64,000 nt of DNA from contig NC_087074.1 in assembly GCF_026151205.1 (NCBI RefSeq), positions 11,513,182-11,577,181 on the forward strand, written 5' to 3'. Of this stretch, positions 31,469-63,771 are shown piece after piece (position 1 is the first letter of the stretch; the number at the start of each line of letters is the position of its first letter). The DNA comes from Bolinopsis microptera. Lineage: Eukaryota > Ctenophora > Tentaculata > Lobata > Bolinopsidae. The notes under the pieces are model-generated. The model was not told where the DNA came from. It was given only the letters and a program-made list of their open reading frames with translations, and did not search any database. Made by a program: the position numbers and the translations under genes.

Positions 31469-34400
31469 TCATGTCGAAAATGCTTGTGATGCCTCTGAAA
31501 AGTGAGACTTAGAGTAAAGCCACTTGTACTGATTCAATCGCTGATTGGTCAAAGCACAGATGAAGTTGACTCCAGCTGCTCGGTGAGGACCCATTGCAAT
31601 TATAGGCCCGTCTTCTTTTCTGCAATCCCAACTTTGCAGCTGCTGCATGTCCGTAGTGCTCCAGATTCTCACAGTGTTGGTAGATTGATCCCCTGCACAA
31701 ACAAGCAGATGATTGTCATTATCAGGGCATTTTATCAAGCAAGACCGTGATCTCAGGTGCTGATTGGTCCCTCCTTCAAATGTACTAACTACATTTGCTA
31801 CTGTTTTCTCCTCAAAACTGAGGTTCATCAGTATATGACGTTCTTTAGGATACTTTGTATTTGGTTTATAAGATGCTAAGATCTGAGACCTGTCATGTTC
31901 AAAGGAGACAGAGGAGAGAGCACCTGTTGGAGTCTCCAGGAGATCACCAACAAACTTGTTTTTTGTGTCCCTTTTATAATATGTTATACACTGTAAGGTG
32001 GAAACCAAAAGACCCTCTTTACCGTTTTCAGCTGGTGATGGAATAGAGACAACCGATACAATGGGACACTTTTGGGGACCATTCGTAGGGCATATGCTTT
32101 CAATGACCTCCTTTGTATTTCTTATATCAAACATCATCACTTCACCGTTTTGAAGTCCACAGTAAATATGGTAACTATTAGCAAGGCTCCAGCTACAACT
32201 CCAGCAGTCCTTGGTAGCCTGATATGTTATTACTGTATTGTTTGATTTCATACAAGTGAGTTTAATATCTTTGTTCTTACTACAGGATAGCAATGTGGTG
32301 TTCCCATGAGGATCAAAAGCAACATCCCTTATCTGATTCAAATGAAGACCAACAAATTCATGATGACAAGAATCGATAGAGCTAATCTTTAACACACCAT
32401 ATTGATTCAAAGTATCTTCAAATTTTTTTGACACAGCAATCAAGCCAGAAAAAGGATCGGAATGAAAAATATGTGCTTTCTTCTCAGCTGAGGCGAATAC
32501 AGATTTGGAGAATGAGTAGCAGCCATGTCCAGATATAGCTGAGATAGTTGAACGCATGTGCTCACTTGCCTGTGGAAAATCATGTATCAAAGTGTTATCA
32601 ACTTGAAACAATTCATTATCGAAATACAAAATGGATAAAGCCGTGACAATCATTCATTGTGGAGAAACTTTGAATTGGTATGAAACAAAATTTTAAAGTG
32701 ACAAATAATACACTCACTTTTAATCTGTTTTCCAATTCCATAATCGTTTTCTTCATGAAGGAATTTTCTGACGCAAACATTTGGCACTGCATGCTTGTTT
32801 TCAAATGGAGCTTTTCCAGATGATTTCTTTTAGTTTTCTCAGTCTGAAATATAGTTTAGAAGTGTGTGATAAATGCATCTAAATCATTATTACTGTTGAA
32901 TGCACAAATTGAACAAGTCATTTTTTTTTTTTTATCTAGACACTTATTTTACTTCGGTGTATTCCAACAGCCACAATGTTACACAAGTGCAACCAGCCAA
33001 TTACAGGAAGCCGAAGGATCTTTTTGGCCAGTGACGGTTAAGGTAGTGTGTACCATACTTTCTTCGTCCGAGACTTTGCTGCAATGTGCAGCTCCTCATT
33101 TAACCCTCACACCCGATTTCTCGAGTATTCGGCTGAGTAGACCGGGGGGCTGCATAGACCACTCATGATCCTTAGCTGAACGTCGACGACGCTCACCCCA
33201 CGACCAGGCAGTCAGTGGGTTTCGAACTGATGGTCGTCAGGTATGATCAACAAAATTTTGAGAGAAAACTGTAACCATTGCCTGAAAAACGTTTACATAG
33301 GTCAGCCGATGTTTGAGTGCAGTAGATGTAATTGTATTGCCCACTCAAAGTGTTTTTCGCAATCAAAAGCACAAATTATTAATGACAACTTCTACTGCTT
33401 TTCGTGCAAAGATAAAATAGTACACAAGTATAATCCCTTCAAACACTTTGTAGATGACACAACCTCACCAGATGCACATGACGAAACATATAAAATATCC
33501 TCAATCTTAGACAAATGCCAAGCTTATTCTGCTAATGAAATCAACTCATCGCATGGAGAAAATCTTAAAAAGTTTTCCAGCTCCTACTTTCTTAACATTG
33601 ATGGCAATAAAAGCAATTTTGATAGTCTATTAACTGAACTGCACCGCATTAACCAAAACTTCACCGTAATAGGTTTATCAGAAACTAACATAGGTCCTGA
33701 TGAAAGCACCGTGTATTCAATTCCTAACTACAATAGTTTTTACCAGAATACTGTAGGTAATAAATCCAAAGGAACTGGTGTAGCATTATATGTTCAAGAT
33801 AGACTTAGCAGTATTGTGAACGAACTTGCGTCAGACGTTACCGAGAATTTAGAATCACTATTCGTAACTAGTCGTAAAAACTCAGAAGAAGTAACTTTTG
33901 GGGTTATTTACCGACCACCCAGCGGTAATTTTGCAAGCTTCCTGACAGAACTATCTAGAATACTCCAGATATTGCCTAAAAAATCTGCGTATATAATGGG
34001 AGATTTTAACGTCAACCTCCATGTTAATAGTAAAGAAGTTAGCAATCTCGAGGAGATAATGTTTAGTGCCGGTTTCTCGCCTCTTATATCAACACACACG
34101 CACGAGAAGCCGGATGTAATCAAACGTGTATTGACAACATTTACACAAATGATATAAACAAGGTTGTTGCCTCAGGTACAGTATCTGACAGAATCTCGCA
34201 TCATCTGCCAGTTTTTCATATTTTTGAAGACCTAGCTGTAACTAACTCTGAACCTCAAGTTAAACATACCCAATATTATGATTACAGTGAATCCAACGTT
34301 CGAGTCCTTGTTTCATCCTTAAACCAACATTTCTCTGAGCACCCACCAAAAAACTTTATTGAATTTCACGACACATTCAAAACGAATCTAGACAAATCAT

Positions 34401-37400
34401 GTAAACTCAGTAAACCTAAAGTCTCCAAAAGAACGCCAATGACAAATCCGTGGATAACAGGAGGATTAATCGAGTCTATAAATAAAAAACATGAGCTGCA
34501 CGACCACTGGCATAAAGCGAAGAGAGAAAAATGTTTGCATAATCCAGGTAAACTTTGTCGTGAGATCAAGGAAGCCTGTCACTGCAATCCTTGTAATGAT
34601 GCCAGGGAAAAGCATGCTAATTTTACTGACAAACGTAGGAGAGTTAAACACGTAATAAGACTAGCTCAACGCCTCTACACGTGCAACAAAATTGAGGAGT
34701 GTCAGGGTGACAGTAAAAAAACCTGGCAGTTAATTAATAAAGTGCGAGGAAAGCAAAATAAGCAAATGAAACCGTCATTCATGATAAACAATGAGCGTGT
34801 TATTTGTCGACGAGTTATTGCTCATGAATTTAACAAGTACTTTGTGTCAATCGCCTCCAATCTGAACGAGGTCTATGAGAGGAGGATTGATGAAGATCCT
34901 ATAATTGCTAAATCATTCACTGACTACTTGCCACAGTCCTGTCCGTCAAGTATTTATCTTACTGAATGTACAAGCTCTGAAATAATACAAATTATAAGTG
35001 AATTTAATAACGGTAAAGCTAGCGACATACCGGCACATGTAATGAAGCAGTGTAGTCAAACTATATCAGAACATCTTGCCAGAATTTATAACAACTGCAT
35101 GAATGAAGGTGTCTTCCCTGATCAACTGAAAACGGGTAAGATAACCCCGATATATAAAAAAGAAGATGAGGAATTACTAGAGAATTACAGGCCAGTATCA
35201 ACATTACCAGTATTTGGTAAAATATTTGAAAAAAATTATTTACAGTAGATTATACAACTTTTTCTTATCTCGAGGAATAATATTCGAAAATCAGTTCGGC
35301 TTTAGAAAAAACCACTCGACAAGTCATGCTCTTAACTACTCCGTAAATCACGTCGAAGAAAAACGGAATAATAAAAACCACGTATTAGGAATATTTATCG
35401 ATCTCTCTAAAGCATTTGATACCTTACCATTTGATATGCCACTTAAGAAACTTAGTAATTACGGAGTTAGAGGAAACGCACTAAAGCTGCTCTCCAGCTA
35501 TCTAAATAATAGATACCAGTATGTTAGTGTACTTGGTGAAGAATCAGAGCCTCTCCCAGTTAAACTAGGCGTACCTCAAGGATCCGTTTTGGGCCCCTTG
35601 CTTTTTCTTATCTATATAAATGACATCTATAGATGTAGTACATTAGGAAAATTTGTACTATTTGCAGATGACACAAACATCTTTGTAGCTGCTGAAACTA
35701 AGGAAAAAGCATACAAAATAGCGAATGAAATTCTCGACTCTGTGTGCCAATATATGCGCCATAACCTACTGCACATTAATGTTAAAAAATCTTGTTACAT
35801 GTACTTCTCGCCTACTAAACGTAAGACCATTGATAATACTGAAAATGACTTGAATCTAGAAATTGATGGGATCCCGATCAAACAGGTTACTGAAACGAAA
35901 TTTCTAGGTGTAATTATTGATGACAAACTGAGTTGGACACCTCATATCGAGAAACTAACTAAGAAATTAAACAGCATATGTGGCCGTATTTATCGAATAA
36001 AAAACTCCCTCCCCAGCCAGCTGTACAAACAGATATACCACACTCTTTTTGAATCTCATCTAGGATACGGTATAACTGTATGGGGTGGTGTATCAATTAA
36101 TAAGCTTTCACCACTATTCCTTGCACAGAAGAAATGTGTCCGAATCTTATTTGGGGACTCGGAAGCATTTAGCGACAAGTTTAAAACTTGTTCTCGTAGC
36201 AGGCCAATCCAGTGCAGTATAAACAAGAAAGGTAAAATATCCAATGAATCAACTATACCTCACATTAAACCGTGTTCTATATGTATCAGCTTGAGGAAGA
36301 CTGGTGATAAACAAGCAAGGCCACATCGCTGCCAAATACTTGGGGCAGAATTCCACTCTAGAGAATCAACAAAACCTATTTTCCAATCTAAGGAACTAAT
36401 GACAGTACATAACATATATAGATACAGATGCATTACTGAAACAATGAAGATAGTGAAGAGTCATCAGCCCATATCCATGTATTCTCTCTTTAAGAAGTCT
36501 GAGCTCAGAGATGACAGATTTGTGACACCACACTCATCTCACAATTTCGCATATAAAGGGGCAAATTTATGGAATAGGTTTCTTGAGCAGTCAAATGCAC
36601 GTGGAAAAATAGGTTCAATAGGTTCAATTAAATCCCGATTGAAGCTTTCTATCATGAAGGCTCAACACCAACCTGACAATATTAACTGGCAGGACTTAAA
36701 CTTCAACACTTTCCTATGAAAAGACCCCCATTTATATTTATATATTTTAGATTTTACACCTGTCACCCACATCATATATGCACCACAAAAGAAAAAAGAT
36801 TCATTCAATCATTACATTATACACTCACTCCACCACACATGCACACAAAACATTAAAGCAGGTTACACGCGGGTGTAACGTTCACTTTATCCGAAGGGAA
36901 AAATAATACTTTACGTAACGCACAATTTACGTCTTGGTAGCTAAATTATTCAAGTGCTATTTGTCAGAGCGACACAAATGCGCGAGCGCTTGCGCGGCTC
37001 ACCTATCCAACACTCTTGTTTACATCGTATCAGGCAATGGTTCAGTTTAATTATGGTAAGGGCACAGCCTGTCAAAAACCCTTTTCGCATGATCCGTCGA
37101 CACCGCCTGAAGGTGAATGCATAATAACGGATCATGAACGTACGGAATCAAACGTTAATAAGCTTGCAGCTTCCGATGAAAATGTATTCAACTTTGTGTC
37201 ATGCTTGAATTGGTTTTGGACCTCTTCAATGCTTTTAATTTATTTATTATTGTTATTTGGTATTATGAGCTGATATGTATATATACATACGGTATCTAAA
37301 ATTAAGCGTATAGCGAGCATATTTAACAATTTTTAAGCAATAATGTATTGCGAGCAGCTGTAACTTAAACATCGCATAAAAATCATATAACTATAACACA

Positions 37401-55964: not shown

Positions 55965-57048
55965 CATAAAACTTGTCCCCAACGATGAGTGAACGATCTG
56001 TGGGGCCGACAAGTTTTATGTGCGCGTATAACTATAATGTATAAGCGCAATGAATAACAATTCAACACACAGTAAATTGTCGTGATAAGGACTCCCCCTA
56101 CATTATATAACGTAATGATATGCAGTTATTACAGAGTGTATAGTGCTTATTATTATGGGGGCCCAATGGCAATGTAATTGCTCGACTTTTCATCAGGTCT
56201 CTCGAGGCCTTTTGTTTGGTTATTTGGGTGTATTGGTGTCCCCTGATTGTTATCATCGCTGTACACTTGTCAAGGCATTTTTTGGTTTCTCTAGTCCATT
56301 TTTAGAAATTCTATACAACATTGATATTGTAATAAATTCTGATGATAATAATTGAAAGATTTCAATAAAAAAAAATGATTCTTTATGATCAATAGTTTGT
56401 GAGTTCGTTGAATTCTTTAGGTAGAATTGATACGAGTGTTTATAACTTGGACATAAATCCTGGGCCAAGATAAGTATGGTTAATATAAGATTATATACTC
56501 ATTAATCATTATATATTACATAACATTAAAATATACAACACTTATTATGAAGGTAGCTGAGACATGTAGTAAAGTGTATCGATATTCTTGAAAGGAATTC
56601 AATGTATCGGTATAACTGTGATTGAAATAAGTTAACCCGACTATTGACATGTATTCCATTTCTAGGTAGTATAATTTCCGAGAGCCTTAGAATACCACAT
56701 TATTTCAGCACAAAAATTATCACCACCAAAATAAAGAGTTCCCTTGTGACACTTGCCACAAGGTGTACCTTACGAAAGTGGCACGCAATCGCGAACCCTT
56801 GACTGCCCGTTTTGTGACTTCCGATCCAAACGAGGTGCCCACTTTATTCTAAAAGTGGGCACCTCGTTTAATACTCACTATAATAAGTACTATACACTCG
56901 CTAGTAATTACATATCAATTATCATTACGTTATATAATGTAAAAGGAGTCCTTATTATCTCACGACAATTTACTGTGTGTTGAATTGTTATTCATTGCGC
57001 TTATTATAGTTATACGCGCGCATAAAACTTGTCCCCACAGATCGTTTG
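55965..57048. mobile_element. Foldback element with ~165-bp inverted arms
   Basis: The left arm, about 55991-56155, is the complement of the right arm, about 56876-57046. Shared blocks include GATCTGTGGGG, ATAAGCGCAATGAATAACAA, TTCAACACACAGTAAATTGT and CATTATATAACGTAATGAT. The right side also holds a near-perfect 18-bp hairpin at 56830-56868 (AACGAGGTGCCCACTTT and its complement). No coding region and no clear target duplication were found. Confidence 0.8.
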
Positions 57049-57307
57049 GGAAAATATGTTACATTAACGGTTTAGATATTGTCACGCTTCCACGCTGGTA
57101 ATATTGATTTGCTGATTCCTTTATTATTCTTCCTTGTTAGATAATACTGTTATCAGATAGTCATTGATGACAAGATTCTTTATGTAAGGAGATTTCTGCA
57201 TAGACACGTGGTCATCAGATTGTAGGCTTTATTGTGTTATTTGAGGCGGGTTCTACTTAGCGGTGTAATTACTCAATAATGATTCAAATCTAATCGTTTA
57301 TATATAG

Positions 57308-57350
57308 CCATACTGATGAGTCCTAATAGGACGAAACATTGTGTCTATGG
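57308..57350 (+). ncRNA. Type I hammerhead ribozyme
   Basis: All core elements are in order. Stem I 5' strand CCATA (57308-57312) pairs perfectly with TATGG (57346-57350). The conserved CTGATGA is at 57313-57319. Stem II GTCCT/AGGAC (5 bp) closes an AAT loop. GAAA is at 57333-57336. Stem III is only 3 bp (ACA/TGT) with a TTG loop. The cleavage triplet is GTC at 57343-57345, so self-cleavage is predicted after C57345. A short stem III is the pattern known for hammerheads in Penelope-like elements and animal retrozymes, which are thought to work as dimers or with tertiary stem I/II contacts. No ORF is attached. A tandem repeat begins about 60 bases downstream. Confidence 0.9.
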
Positions 57351-57404
57351 ATAAATAAAAGCCTAATGATACAGCTCTAAAACTTTAACCATTGCAATGC
57401 ACGT

Positions 57405-58045
57405 GCACGAGACGTGGAAGCCTGTGAGCGTGAAGACCGCTCTTCTATCGTTGTTTTGAGTGTCCGATCCAAGACCAAATTCTAGGGTACACGAGACGTG
57501 GAAGCTTTTGAGTGGTTAGAGTCTGTTAAGTGTTAGAGTCCTAGGGTTACACGAGACGTGGTAGCCTGTGACCGTGTTAAATCCTAGGGTTACACGAGAC
57601 GTGGTAGCCTGTGAGCCTCACAGGCTACCACGTCTTGTGTAACCCTAGGATTTAACACGCTCACAGTGTGAGCGTGTTAAATCCTGGGGGTACACGAGAC
57701 GTGGTAGTCTGTGAGCGTGTTAAATCCTGGGGTTACACGAGACGTGGTAGTCTGTGAGCGTGTTAAATCCTGGGGTTACACGAGACGTGGTAGCCTACGT
57801 GCGCGTGTAGACCACTCCTCTATCGTTGTTTTGAGTGTCCGATCCAAGATCAAATCCTAGGGTACACGAGACGTGGAAGCCTGTGAGCGTGTTAGAGTCT
57901 ATTAAGTGTTTGAGTCTTAGGGTTACACGAGACTTGGTAGCCTGTGAGCGTGTAGACCGCTCCTCTATCGTTGTTTTGTGTGTCCGATCCAAAACCAAAT
58001 CCTGGGCCGGGGTTACACGTTATGTGGGAGCCTGTGAGCCTGTTA
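57405..58045. repeat. ~43-bp satellite with an internal inversion
   Basis: Units of the form TTACACGAGACGTGGTAGCCTG plus TGAGCGTGTTAAATCCTGGGG repeat about ten times. Longer variants contain GTAGACCGCTCCTCTATCG and GTTTTGAGTGTCCGATCC. One stretch (57616-57660) is inverted. It makes a ~37-bp near-perfect stem around 57616 and a second 14-bp stem around 57667. Confidence 0.9.
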
Positions 58046-58660
58046 GTTTCCTGCGGAAGGTGTTATTTGCCTGTGGGAAAAGCGGTTATGCTGCGGTTCT
58101 AAGGTTAGTAGAGGCTATTAGAGCCTTTCCTTTGTTGTAGAGATGGCTAGTCCCTCCCTTTGCATAGGTTAGAAACACCCATGCACCTCCCGTTCGAGCC
58201 ACCCAGCCCACACCGCGTGGAGGTTCGGTGAGGTTTTTCGTGGGGCTATAATGGAGGTCACATGAACAACACCAAGCATCCATTGATATGTTATGAAATC
58301 GACACGTGTTACCCAGAAGTCCTGCATGTCAGATTGAAGGCCTCTCATTGGACAATGAACTACTTTGAAGGTGTGAAAAATCAGTTTTTCGGTATTTTCG
58401 TCCACTTAATTAACTCAAAATTTCAAATTTTTGGTCGCAAACGGTAAGTATCACCGTGATCTTGAGCCGTGCTGTAAGTAAATTATAAAACTGCTGACAA
58501 AACTCGTGCCTTCGGCACTCTTTAGGCACTCGTTAGGTTCTAAAATAATCTTTACATTGATACAACGCAAGGCGTAGTGAATTCTTGAAATGTACGTTTT
58601 GCTTTTACTCCAACTCGTTCCTAGCTTTTCTCATACAGCAGATCAATCATTGACCTCTGT
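58046..58660. other. Spacer with no supported gene
   Basis: Short overlapping frames on both strands at 58086-58447 have no recognisable motif. Confidence 0.4.
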
Positions 58661-58748: not shown

Positions 58749-61027
58749 ATTGATGATTAGGGAATGAAATAGGTCATAGGTACCACAGTGCTCTACAAAC
58801 TTATTGTGAGTTAGAAGCTATGCGTAATGCTAAGTGGTAAATCTATACAATCCCCCATGCAGAGTGCTCAAGCTTAGTAATAGTAATCTAAACGAGCAAT
58901 AAGAGCAAATATATATAAATATTCAGGAATATTTTTAATCACCATATTATGATGAAGACTCTCGCTGCTTTCGAGTCATCATGATTAGCATAATCAACTC
59001 AAGTCTGACATTGGTGTCCAGTTTGACTTTGATCTTTAAACTGAGCGAGAGCCGTTTGACCATTGACCATTGGCATTACGTTGTTACTGTTATTGTTAAT
59101 TTTATTAGCAGAATTCCGCGGATTTAAAATAAATGCAAAATCTGAGATGGGTCGGTCATTCCAAATTTAGTTTTCACAATACAATCTCTCACAAAATCGT
59201 CCACTGATTCATTTTTCTCTTTTCGCCAGTTCTCAGGCATGCCGGCATAGGCCAGCTCTTGATTTGGTCTTTATTTGTTTCGTTAATTCGCTGATCGTCA
59301 ATCTTAGTTATACTCATATCTAAGAATTAAGGTACAAACAGGTACAAACACGAGAATTTTGTAAAACGTACGTTAAACGTATTGTTACACTTATTGGGGT
59401 TCACGATTATTATAGACTTCTCTCAGTGGTCAACAATTTGTAATCTGTAGAGGTGATAATAACAGCAAGGAGAGCTTTGTGCCAAAGTGTTGTACTTGTA
59501 GTGTATAACTATTAACTATAACTGCAGTTTTCCGTTTTTTACAGATACAATATTCGTTTAGAGAATTGTACAAAGTGCTCGACTACGAGTAGGAGCGGTA
59601 TACAGATATTGTGGTTCTTTTTCGATAGTCTAAATGCGATAGCTAGCGCTCACTATCGCTCACTATCGCTCACTATCGCTCACTATCGCTGATTGATTGC
59701 TAGTCAACACTAGCTATCGCAAACTAAAAATTTTCGATAACTATAGCCCTAACTATAAACGCAAAATATCAAAATCACGGTGGCGACAGGCATGACAACC
59801 ATCTCGCGTGAGTGTGGGTTCTAGCCTACTCAACTCTCTAATTGAAAAGGGTCTCTGGGAGAACTACAAATGAAGTCTTATTTTACATAATGTAGTGGAC
59901 CTGCCGGTTGCAACATTGTTAATTATGTTTGAGTGTCTTCATCCGCAGTGGCAATGTTTTATTATTTTGTTTTAGGTGTGTTCTTCAATCACTTACAATT
60001 GTTTTTGATTGCTGGATGATTTTGTATGCAGGCTTCAATGCGGGTTCATACTATTGCGCTTTTTCAATTGCGACCTTGGAAACTAGTCTATCTACACTAA
60101 TAATCCTAATAAATGTGTGAGTGTGTGTCTGTGGGTAATTTAACAACGGTTTATTCAAGAAAAAGGTGAGTTATGGGACTGGTTTTTTCGGTATAATGAC
60201 GAAAAAACTCTGACAAAGCCAAATGATTAAGGTTTTTATGAAATGGACATTCGAAAAGTTGTTTAATCGATGGTTTTGTATATCATTTGTGATATAATAG
60301 CTTGTAATTGTCTTGCGGCGGGTTCTATCTGATATACGAGGTCTAAATACGATCATTGTTACACTAAGTGTGTCCCTTAATTGTGGCTTTTTGTAATATA
60401 ATGTTACATATTAAAGAGAGGAAGCAATTACCAATTAGAACAATGACTGATGACATGTTTTATTCATTGCAAGCGGAGAGTTCCTGCTATGTTGTGGCAA
60501 TTAAACTCCCCGGGAACCATTGTGTAAGTCATTAGGAACGCCATGGACAATACCGAATATCCTTTGACAGAAGGTCGAGACGACCGCACCGACCTTGATA
60601 GTGAAAGAGTTTGTAATTGTCCTTTTTTTAATTTCTAGAACACACTCTACGATGAAGTCGAGCAAGGCACAGTGATTTCTTGTCATATTCTTTTTGATTT
60701 TGCTCCAACTTGTTTCTGCCTTATCCGTGTCTTAGGTGTCTCCCAAGTATGTCTACAGATTTTTCGAATTTTGTTTGCAAGGATTTGAGTCAAAATGTTT
60801 AACGAAAAATGTATCTTTCAGGATGTTAAAAATACATTTTAAAAAGAAATGTCCGGTTGAATATTCGGCCAAATTCTTGGAAACCGGAACTGGATATTAA
60901 AGCCAGATATCCGGCCGGAACGAGATTCACGGTTCGTATCGGTATACCGTACGATTATATTTCTTCCCGTAATTTTGTTCTACGAGATTACTAAAGTTGA
61001 TGAGAATCAAAGCAGGCTTCTTTTTCA
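58749..61027. other. Long stretch without supported genes
   Basis: AT-rich. A (GCTCACTATC)n microsatellite of four to five units lies at 59648-59690. Short frames carry no motif. It would include the promoter of the secreted-protein gene starting at 61028. Confidence 0.45.
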
Positions 61028-61482: not shown

Positions 61483-63477
61483 TTAAAGTTGATGCCTTAG
61501 TCTGTCCTGGGCACATTGCTCAAAATTCCCTACGTCAACTTGCTCTATAATAGAAACATTAATTTCCTTACTTAAAGTACTGGTAAACAACTTAGTGGTG
61601 GTACGGTCAAGATTGTGCAAAATCTCATTATCTATGAAATGGTAGGAAAATTCACAAGTCCTTCTTTGAGTTTTAATGTGGGATTTATGGTTCCTTAATC
61701 TAACTTTTAGAGAGTCTGAAGTACATCCTATATAACTTAACTTACAATTAATATCATTAACTATGTAAACAATATTTTTGGTATCACAGTCTAATCGTCC
61801 TTTGATACTGAATACTTGGTTGGTGTGGAAACTGCCGATTGTGGTTGATGGTTTCAGGAAGTTTTTGCAGAGATCACATTTCTTAGCACAAGGGAAGCAA
61901 CCTCCAGAATCAGAATCCTCAGCTGTGTCTGGAGAGGCGTGGCCTGGATCTTCTACAGCTGGCTCTTCAACAGGAGGGAGTTTGCTATGCATAAGAATCT
62001 CCTGAAATGTTTTTGTCCCTCTAAAAGAGGTGAAAATACCATCAGGGTCAATCACCTTGCAAAGCTTGAGATCTAGACGAAGGATGTGCTTGTGAGAGTT
62101 TAGAATCCGTCCTATGTTGGGGAGACCTGGGTTGAAATCTGTTACAAGGGGAATGAGTCTCCCTTTGCTACTGTCATCCTCCTTCTGTCTCCGTTGTTGA
62201 TAATAGGAGAGCCTGCTCTTGGTTTACACTTTATCAAAGGCCTGGTTAATTAAGCTTGTGCTATAGCCTCTTGACTCAAGATAGCTAATGTATTGTGTTC
62301 GTGCTTGTATATACTCATCATGCTCAGAAGTCAGTTTGAAAATTCTAAGTGCAGTGCTATAAGGTATGTTTTTTATGGTATATATAGGATGGCAAGAGGT
62401 GGGAACTAAAGAAGCCTTCAACGTGAATTTGATGCCTGGCATTCTAGAATTGAGCCATAAGTGGAATTCCTCGAGCATTTCCTGTCCATGGGTCCAATGG
62501 ACATACACATCATCGCGGTATCTGGCCCATAGGAGAGGGGGTGGCTCCAAGTTCCTTCCATAACATCTCTGTCTATCTTGTCGATGGCTGTATTCGCATT
62601 AGCACAAGCGTTCTTTGGTCCCATTGCAGTTCCTTTTTTCTGCTTGTATATGACACCTTCAAACTCTGTTAGGTTGTTGTCTAGAGTTGTCTCTAAGGCA
62701 TCTATTATACAATCTGTAGAGAGTATTGGGTCCTCTCTCTTGTCTAAATGGAGCCTACATTGTTTTAATCCCACCGCCTTTTGGATACTCGGGAACATAG
62801 CTTCTATGTCAAAGGATGCATGAATAACTGTCTTGCCCTCAAGGGATTTAGAGTTATTTAAGTCATCGAGTATTCTTAGTGTATATGATTATTATCCTGG
62901 ATGGCATATTTTAGATCAACCTTAGTAAGCTCGTATGCTGTAAGTGCAGAGAGATTCTTATCTTGATTGCTGATGCGCATCCTGTGCTAATCATACGGCC
63001 AGGGTAGTTCTTCTCTGGCTTGTGTGCTTTAGGGTTGACATAGTTGTTCCCGGGCTTACAAAAGTCATCAGGTGTAACCCATTTGTAGACCTTTTCCGTT
63101 AAACCAGGCTCTTCATGATACTTTGCTATCCAATCTGATATTGCTAGCTTTGTAGCATGCTCGGCTTCTTCTTTCTGAACAGTGTCAAAGGTTTCTGCAT
63201 CTAGGTGTTCTTTAACCCTCTTGATGTAGTCTTCTCGGTCCAAAAAGAAGTATTGTGAACCTTTGTCAGCTGGTCTGATGACAATATCTTTCCACTTTGC
63301 CATATCTGATAAGGCTTTTCTGGATTCTACTGGGATATTGTCAGGAAGCTTAGATCTGGTAGAGCTGTTTGTTTGTAACAGGTCTTTTGTTACTCTCTCT
63401 ATGTAAAGCTCTAAACAGTGGTTATTGCATACTTTTAAAGGCTTGGTTTCATCAGACTTAATGAGGGTTCTTTCCAT
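61483..63477 (-). mobile_element. Broken Penelope-like retroelement (RT plus GIY-YIG endonuclease)
   Basis: Read on the minus strand, four frame blocks appear. 63477-62911 is the RT amino part (VIRPADKGSQYFFLDREDY, then NPKAHKPEKNYPGRMISTGC). 62798-62418 has MFPSIQKAVGLKQC and the KKGTAMGPKNACANANTA motif. 62550-62224 has the catalytic WARYRDDVYVHW. 62055-61483 has a CxxC...CDLC linker and the endonuclease (VYIVND...LSYIGCTSDSLKVRLRNHKSHI), a GIY-YIG variant. This order is diagnostic of endonuclease-positive Penelope-like elements. At least three frame breaks make the copy non-functional. It lies in the first intron of the secreted-protein gene, on the opposite strand. No hammerhead is seen within the element itself. 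Confidence 0.9.
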
Positions 63478-63771
63478 ACTTTTTATCGATGCAATGGTCG
63501 GAGGTGTTGCTTTTGGCTGGGGTTGTGTGGGGTATATATATATACCTACCTAATAAATAGTTGCTGCTTGGTTTCCAAAAGAGAGTGCTCGACTGCAGTT
63601 AAGCAGGGGCATTATAATTCGAACAATTGAAACAAATCAAATTGGTGGGCAAACTATCCTTTTCATGACATGTATATAATAAAACAATACCAATCATCCG
63701 GGCATATTTATATATATCGTTTCGCTGTATATAGTAAGATTCTACGATCAATTTGTTAAATTTTACGTTTC

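Follow-up and report, generated by a model that had tools for sequence, protein, structure and literature searches.

Introduction

Non-LTR retrozymes of metazoans are described as multi-copy elements built of head-to-tail units of 170-400 bp, with a type I hammerhead ribozyme, no long reading frame and target duplications of more than 4 bp, in genomes that hold Penelope-like elements (PLEs) (PMC7229834). They accumulate as abundant small RNA circles, and PLEs have been named as a strong candidate for their reverse transcription (PMC7229834). A 2020 review states that no motif in metazoan retrozymes betrays their autonomous partner (PMC7761336). Minimal type I hammerheads are also carried by PLEs themselves, all available PLEs being said to have hammerheads (PMC6155905). 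In schistosomes, hammerheads reside in the SINE-like elements Sm-alpha and Sj-alpha, which have A and B boxes (PMC2770079, PMC2576457). Plant LTR retrozymes are non-autonomous and hammerhead-processed, with a proposed circular RNA intermediate, and carry type III hammerheads in LTRs, together with a PBS and a PPT (PMC7229834). Ctenophores go unmentioned in the consulted text of PMC7229834 and PMC7761336. No earlier report of a hammerhead retrozyme in ctenophores was found in the open-access literature, and none of the open-access papers found on ctenophore PLEs concerns retrozymes or PLE hammerheads, as judged by their titles.

Here we describe a hammerhead element of Bolinopsis microptera that is most likely an animal-type (non-LTR) retrozyme of a ctenophore. 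It is a new family within the known class of animal retrozymes and places a hammerhead retrozyme in ctenophores. Its 277-bp unit has a longest open stretch of 45 codons, and its GC content of 45.5% lies under the limit of 50% given in the text of PMC7229834 and not under the 45% of a legend there. Target duplications of more than 4 bp were found for the family and not seen for the copy that drew our attention, which has one hammerhead and no full unit. The hammerhead is minimal, with a 3-bp stem III and no evident loop contact, a kind that has been likened to the motifs of PLEs and Terminons (PMC7229834). Unlike the metazoan retrozymes described so far, the element shows (TA)n targeting and a fixed 3' end, which lies 8 nt beyond the cut. 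With hammerhead-bearing PLEs (PMC6155905) the element shares the minimal type I motif, and the genome holds many GIY-YIG PLEs whose TA-tract targets resemble its own; unlike such PLEs, the unit contains neither reverse transcriptase (RT) nor endonuclease, and the PLEs that we scanned lack an Rfam hammerhead. As in Sm-alpha and Sj-alpha, a hammerhead sits in a short non-autonomous retroelement with A/B-box-like sequences, but tRNA similarity was not detected, the target is (TA)n, and 77 pattern hits compare with about 38,500 and 5,000 hammerhead candidates in schistosomes (PMC2770079). The plant elements differ by their type III motifs in LTRs from the type I motif and tandem units seen here.

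Our overall reading, to which we assign a probability of about 0.7, is that this non-LTR retrozyme is moved into (TA)n tracts by PLE enzymes from a ligated or multimeric RNA, and that the copy in the analysed locus is a stub. The interest thus lies in the family and not in that copy, as it is the junctions of the family that point to PLE enzymes and to a ligated or multimeric RNA template.

Results and Discussion

A type I hammerhead motif in the window

The window, the whole 64-kb stretch of DNA that was analysed, corresponds to C3:11513182-11577181 of the genome (264,652,675 bases searched) and has a GC content of 38.7%. A cmscan of the entire window against Rfam returned a single Hammerhead_1 match, which covers the full model (Table 1). 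The core pattern occurred once in the window and in none of 100 dinucleotide shuffles. A preliminary description of the locus had claimed a complete invariant core and three paired stems, and the letters bear this out: the core CTGATGA lies at 57313-57319, GAA follows stem II, stem I is CCATA/TATGG, stem II is GTCCT(AAT)AGGAC with five pairs around AAU, and stem III is ACA(TTG)TGT with three pairs around UUG. The GTC triplet, also said there to be properly placed, ends at 57345, and cleavage is predicted after C57345, giving a new 5' end at 57346. By sequence, the motif is thus confirmed as a genuine type I hammerhead. Its architecture is not type III, and a genome search with the type III model RF00008 gave no hit, as was the case for the control genomes.

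A covariance-model hit above threshold had been proposed as a check of the motif, and the window copy narrowly misses it. The window copy, at 33.2 bits, is slightly under the Hammerhead_1 gathering score of 34 bits, whereas 67 of the at least 69 matches listed in the genome search exceeded it (34.1-41.4 bits). The genome search scores the best candidates only; the window copy is absent from its list and present in the pattern search.

Table 1. Features of the retrozyme stub and its surroundings, in window positions.
Feature	Position	Strand	Basis
Short TA tract, left (5') junction of the putative retrozyme stub	57299..57306		Tract list, letters
Type I hammerhead ribozyme motif	57306..57352	+	cmscan 33.2 bits, E 2.1e-4; core pattern and shuffles; predicted cut after C57345
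Most likely retrozyme copy, last ~47-51 bp, hammerhead only	57307..57353	+	BLAST to the 277-bp unit, 57306-57357, 98%
TATGGATA, eight bases past the predicted cleavage site, the family's 3' end; holds the 3' strand of stem I	57346..57353	+	Junction maps
Remnant of the retrozyme body (unit positions 70-171), diverged to 79% identity and lacking the hammerhead	58775..58880	-	Comparison to unit
Frame-broken PLE, family A, not the carrier of the hammerhead	61483..63549	-	Frames, GIY-YIG profile match

The motif belongs to a dispersed family of 277-bp units

A census of the genome with the core pattern gave 79 hits, 77 of which come from one family and two of which were judged from their letters to be chance matches; the reversed pattern, used as control, gave one hit. 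The family therefore comprises at least 77 genomic copies, many in head-to-tail arrays with a spacing of 277 bp, and a further hammerhead place outside the pattern census lies at C13:5797604. A DNA search with the 277-bp unit listed 104 matches. Units at several loci were 99-100% identical, indicating that the family has moved recently. Two or more hammerheads were present in 16 of the 48 loci (rows) whose junctions were mapped, and LTRs were not seen in any of the junction maps. The exact hammerhead core had no occurrence in IMG/VR viral contigs.

The preliminary description had taken the 3-bp stem III as a pattern of retroelement-borne animal hammerheads. Both the short stem and carriage by a retroelement stand, but the carrier is a 277-bp tandem retrozyme and not the adjoining PLE. 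It had also counted one copy in the window, which is right for the hammerhead and not for the element, given the hammerhead-less relic of its body listed in Table 1.

Most retrozyme insertions share a fixed 3' end and lie in TA tracts

For junction mapping, 64 of the 77 family hits were entered, inner members of some arrays being omitted, which gave 53 clusters. Removal of duplicates with the same flanks (L022, L043, L046, L049 and L051) left 48 rows, or about 47 insertions, since L016 and L017 are halves of one array; diverged unit matches, for example on C7, C5 and C2, were left out. The array of L016 and L017 (C1, about 12.166-12.169 Mb) has its hammerhead interrupted by an insert of ~3 kb with inverted ends (TAGTACAGACAGATCCGTC...).

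In 44 of the 48 rows the 3' end mapped to unit position 275-277, reading GTC^TATGGATA, that is, 8 nt past the cleavage site. As L052 reads CTATATATA and L055 reads CTTTCGAT at this end, the strict count of fixed ends is 42 of 48. The exceptions are L016, where the array is cut by the later insert, L024, L039 and L058. By contrast with these fixed ends, 5' ends were variable, and insertions ranged from 48 to 1811 bp with a median of 176 bp (48 rows). A pile-up of 5' ends at the edge of the hammerhead was set aside, as copies shorter than the search pattern are invisible.

A (TA)3 or longer tract was found within 30 bp after the 3' end in 39/48 rows, around the 5' end (39-bp stretch) in 38/48, and at both ends in 30/48, compared with a background of 2.5% of 30-bp stretches of the window (227/9139). 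Target duplications were evaluated in 43 rows, after further omission of L016, L017, L024, L039 and L058. The mean match was 9.6, against 7.2 (highest value 8.3) in 300 shuffled pairings, and non-trivial duplications numbered 18, against a mean of 6.2 and a maximum of 14. Taken together, the fixed 3' ends, variable 5' ends, TA tracts and duplications are hallmarks of insertion at TA tracts by target-primed reverse transcription. Since the hammerhead is contiguous with the eight bases past the cut at these 3' ends, the copied RNA was either joined across the ribozyme cleavage site or never cleaved there.

Tandem arrays of one family with many near-identical units might also be expected of satellite DNA spread by recombination alone, with the hammerhead incidental. 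That reading would have to account for dispersed rows that share one 3' end in 44 of 48 cases and vary at the 5' end, for TA duplications in excess of shuffled pairings, which are marks of retroposition, and for a hammerhead conserved more than the remainder of the unit (see below); we give it a very slim chance.

At L002, L031, L037, L050, L056 and L059, the TA tract that holds the retrozyme adjoins a different repeat (flank ...CACGACAATCTGTTGTAAAACAGGGGTT...), so that (TA)n tracts inside other repeats act as landing sites.

Penelope-like elements end at the same kind of tract

A PLE some 4 kb from the hammerhead and on the opposite strand, as the preliminary description had it, is indeed present (Table 1). 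Its coding sequence is split across several frames, and its GIY-YIG match (E 2.6e-4, 21.7 bits) is just below the domain cut-off; this part is up to 95% identical to other copies in the genome. The window also contains a frame-broken LINE at 33231-36719 (+), with endonuclease and RT parts and many close genomic relatives, which served as control.

Inspection of alignment ends by eye placed (TA)n at the end of 19 of 20 PLE copies from four families, the exception being L075, and of 0 of 9 LINE copies from three families related to the window LINE, which had other sequence there (Fisher p 1e-6). The PLE sample comprised 20 of the 151 match rows obtained by searching with the GIY-YIG region of the window PLE, and the LINE sample 12 of 112, with ends mapped in nine. 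Two PLE loci, L080 and L081, are apparently young: each is bounded on both sides by TA tracts, carries terminal repeats (266 and 290 bp; 100% and 99.7% identical) and keeps an open frame of 1043-1044 aa. The third locus, L082, showed neither a terminal repeat nor a 5' TA tract within the stretch fetched. Pfam detected GIY-YIG in L080 (family C) and weak GIY-YIG and weak RT matches in L082 (family A), and found no domain in L081 (family B).

PLEs with minimal hammerheads are published (PMC6155905; PMC7229834), one PLE lies ~4 kb from the window hammerhead, and at least four hammerhead loci (C1:12165899, C4:8051350, C6:11265322 and C12:3413023) are within ~1 kb of PLE matches, all of which would suit a hammerhead that is part of a PLE terminal repeat and a window copy that is the remnant of a PLE end. 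Against this, Rfam reported no hammerhead in the 16 of the 20 PLE 3' ends scanned (E up to 1) or in the three longer PLE loci, which span 4.3-5 kb (E up to 5). When the core pattern was relaxed and run over 35 kb, a few matches appeared on the PLE sense strand (L080, L082 and the window PLE), none of which fits a stricter pattern with one mismatch. The two matches that do fit it, in L061 and L078, lie outside the PLE, past its end, and on the opposite strand. The family, moreover, forms 277-bp arrays with ends of their own, and no sequence is shared between PLE ends and the 277-bp unit. The hammerhead as a PLE component was rejected on the Rfam scans, the pattern scan and these unrelated ends, and we hold it to be very unlikely. 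The PLEs studied here would thus be an exception to the generality stated in PMC6155905, or they mark a limit of the motif searches: PLE hammerheads may have been missed by the Rfam model or may lie in other PLE copies.

Of the PLE connection suggested in the preliminary description, what survives is the shared target and not a shared motif: the PLE stretches scanned yielded no Rfam hammerhead, and (TA)n targets are common to PLEs and retrozyme. This suggests that, in this animal, the hammerhead is carried not by the PLE, itself a parasite, but by an element parasitic on it. PLE enzymes are named as the mover mainly because retrozyme and PLEs both target (TA)n, which is circumstantial, and common targeting does not prove common enzymes. 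TA-tract targets common to the retrozyme and four PLE families, and not shared by the LINEs tested, provide a testable clue to the enzyme that copies animal retrozymes into DNA. If hammerhead-less PLEs do move the retrozyme in trans from a ligated RNA circle, a reading taken up below, the junctions would reveal the autonomous partner that animal retrozymes have so far lacked, in a lineage among the first to branch off in animal evolution.

At L078, on the minus strand from 160 and past the PLE end, another repeat contains a hammerhead-like core, CTGATGATATCATGG...GAAACATTTGTC, with one mismatch to the strict pattern; Rfam reports nothing at this core. A similar stretch with an altered core precedes the retrozyme at L008.

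Promoter-like sequences and the SINE alternative

The unit matches the A-box consensus at position 145 and the B-box consensus at position 188, and contains no TTTT terminator. These matches and the lack of TTTT would fit transcription by RNA polymerase III. When the A/B-box part was searched alone, the best 40 scored matches were all within known retrozyme loci. ARAGORN found no tRNA in this region, and tRNA families gave no hit in L037 and L045 at E up to 5.

The boxes could also belong to a SINE-like element moved by a LINE, with a polymerase III promoter and a hammerhead, on the model of the schistosome Sm-alpha (PMC2770079, PMC2576457), and dispersed 5'-truncated insertions are LINE-like as well. 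However, none of the nine LINE copies, which cover three related families, ends at a TA tract, tRNA models score nothing, and copies are often multi-unit arrays, so that we give this explanation a small chance and favour movement of the retrozyme by PLE enzymes.

Arrays, template form and conservation of the hammerhead

Differences within arrays were few in young arrays (0 in L019, 0.2% in L011) and more numerous in older ones (2.5% in L033, 3.7% in L002 and 19% in L024). Near-identity inside the young arrays is as would be expected from one circle copied several times; the older arrays do not show it. L033 (C6:1741787-1744008) is a mixed array whose units, typed by sub-family, read A A B B A. 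A single circle would not suffice for this pattern, which calls for a multimer of mixed composition as the template, or for a switch of template or a later recombination between retrozyme RNAs or arrays. Variants private to one array would have argued for a single circle behind each array; none was found, L033 is mixed, and the argument was dropped.

Across 38 full units from 20 loci, the hammerhead differed from the consensus at 1.7% of cells, compared with 5.8% elsewhere, in a set that carries some bias, as its loci were first found via the hammerhead and its units are related, and that still includes the duplicates L043 and L049. At the 30 hammerhead sites that were not used in finding the copies, 1.75% differed, against 5.8% outside (permutation p 2.5e-4). 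As low or lower a value was reached by 36 of the 277 circular blocks of hammerhead length, and among blocks that do not touch the hammerhead the minimum was 2.6%, so that the slowly changing stretch includes the hammerhead and extends somewhat past it.

Pairing of stem III between two hammerheads through the near-palindrome ACACUGUGU was computed at -7.5 kcal/mol for the family and -4.4 kcal/mol for the window variant. Cleavage by dimeric hammerheads has been described for newt and axolotl (PMC6155905; PMC7229834). A dimer-dependent ribozyme would cleave arrays and spare the monomer circle. A point against the cycle proposed below is that the predicted minimum-energy circle of the unit does not show the hammerhead core in its active form. 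RtcB exons are present in the genome.

The template may instead have been an uncleaved linear multimer transcript, with no circle at all and with arrays as partial copies of existing arrays. The mixed array L033 would follow naturally, and a TA primer that paired with the AU-rich patch, in whichever unit, could fix the 3' ends. Conservation of the hammerhead would be left unexplained, however, and published retrozymes accumulate as monomer circles (PMC7229834). We regard a linear template as unlikely on balance, with an appreciable chance of being right; circle and linear multimer are not separable by the junction data.

Proposed cycle

On sequence grounds, we infer transcription, cleavage and circularisation of retrozyme RNA. 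In the cycle that we propose, arrays of the 277-bp unit would be transcribed, perhaps by RNA polymerase III from the A/B-box-like sequences. The hammerhead, weak for its 3-bp stem III and lack of an obvious loop-loop contact, would cleave best in the multimer, as paired copies held together through the near-palindrome. Monomers with 5'-OH and cyclic-phosphate ends would come free and be closed into circles by a ligase, probably RtcB. The RT/GIY-YIG endonuclease of a PLE would then nick a (TA)n tract, and the TA-rich primer would pair with the AU-rich patch that immediately follows the cleavage site (UAUGGAUAAAUAU), as the junctions suggest. Copying would proceed back through the hammerhead and, if processive, over several laps of the template. 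Copying in this way would yield 3' ends at one position, 5' ends at many, units in tandem and duplications of the TA tract, all four of which are seen in the genome, while an enzyme dissociating after about 50 nt would leave a hammerhead-only stub such as that in the window. The more specific proposition that hammerhead-less GIY-YIG PLEs move the retrozyme in trans, by multi-lap reverse transcription of a ligated circle at TA tracts, is tentative, and we put it at slightly below even odds.

The window copy

Of the shortest class, about 50 bp, the window copy begins with GCCATA beside a small TA tract and differs from the 277-bp unit by one base, within the loop of stem III. To its right lies AATAAAAG in place of a TA tract, and junction comparison found no clear target duplication around it, so that the copy may have been rearranged or may have arrived by another path. 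Most likely it is a 5'-truncated, hammerhead-only retrozyme stub that was dead on arrival. Holding one hammerhead and nothing that resembles a promoter, it should be unable to give rise to new copies, and no function is expected of it.

The left flank (57045-57271) consists of a repeat that breaks off sharply at 57271; its identity is 96% with C3:11598227-11598453 and 84% with a sequence on C12. No empty site was recovered, because both of these paralogues stop at 57271, short of the insertion point.

Its intact core might invite comparison with amniote intronic hammerheads, that is, with a solitary host ribozyme functional at this locus. Such a role is close to negligible in our estimation and was rejected in view of the many mobile sister copies: the window copy is 98% identical to dozens of them, and no open frame of 100 codons runs over the motif, a test that an intron would escape.

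A candidate HDV-like ribozyme beside the stub

On the minus strand next to the stub, a high-copy element occupies 57406-58246; a genome search for it gave 242 candidates, of which the best 40 were scored. At its 5' end, a sub-threshold match to drz-agam-1 (HDV-like) was obtained at 58245-58186 (27.5 bits, E 0.24). Against a ribozyme there, Rfam reported no drz-agam-1 match for the seven other copies (L104-L110). The 5' boundary of the element lies just before GCCCCAC in L104-L110 and in the window (ambiguous in L105), and the candidate P1 is GCCCCAC/GUGGGGU, with one change in the window copy. In L104, an RT frame of 763 aa is found downstream, so that the candidate would seem to be an HDV-like ribozyme heading a LINE.
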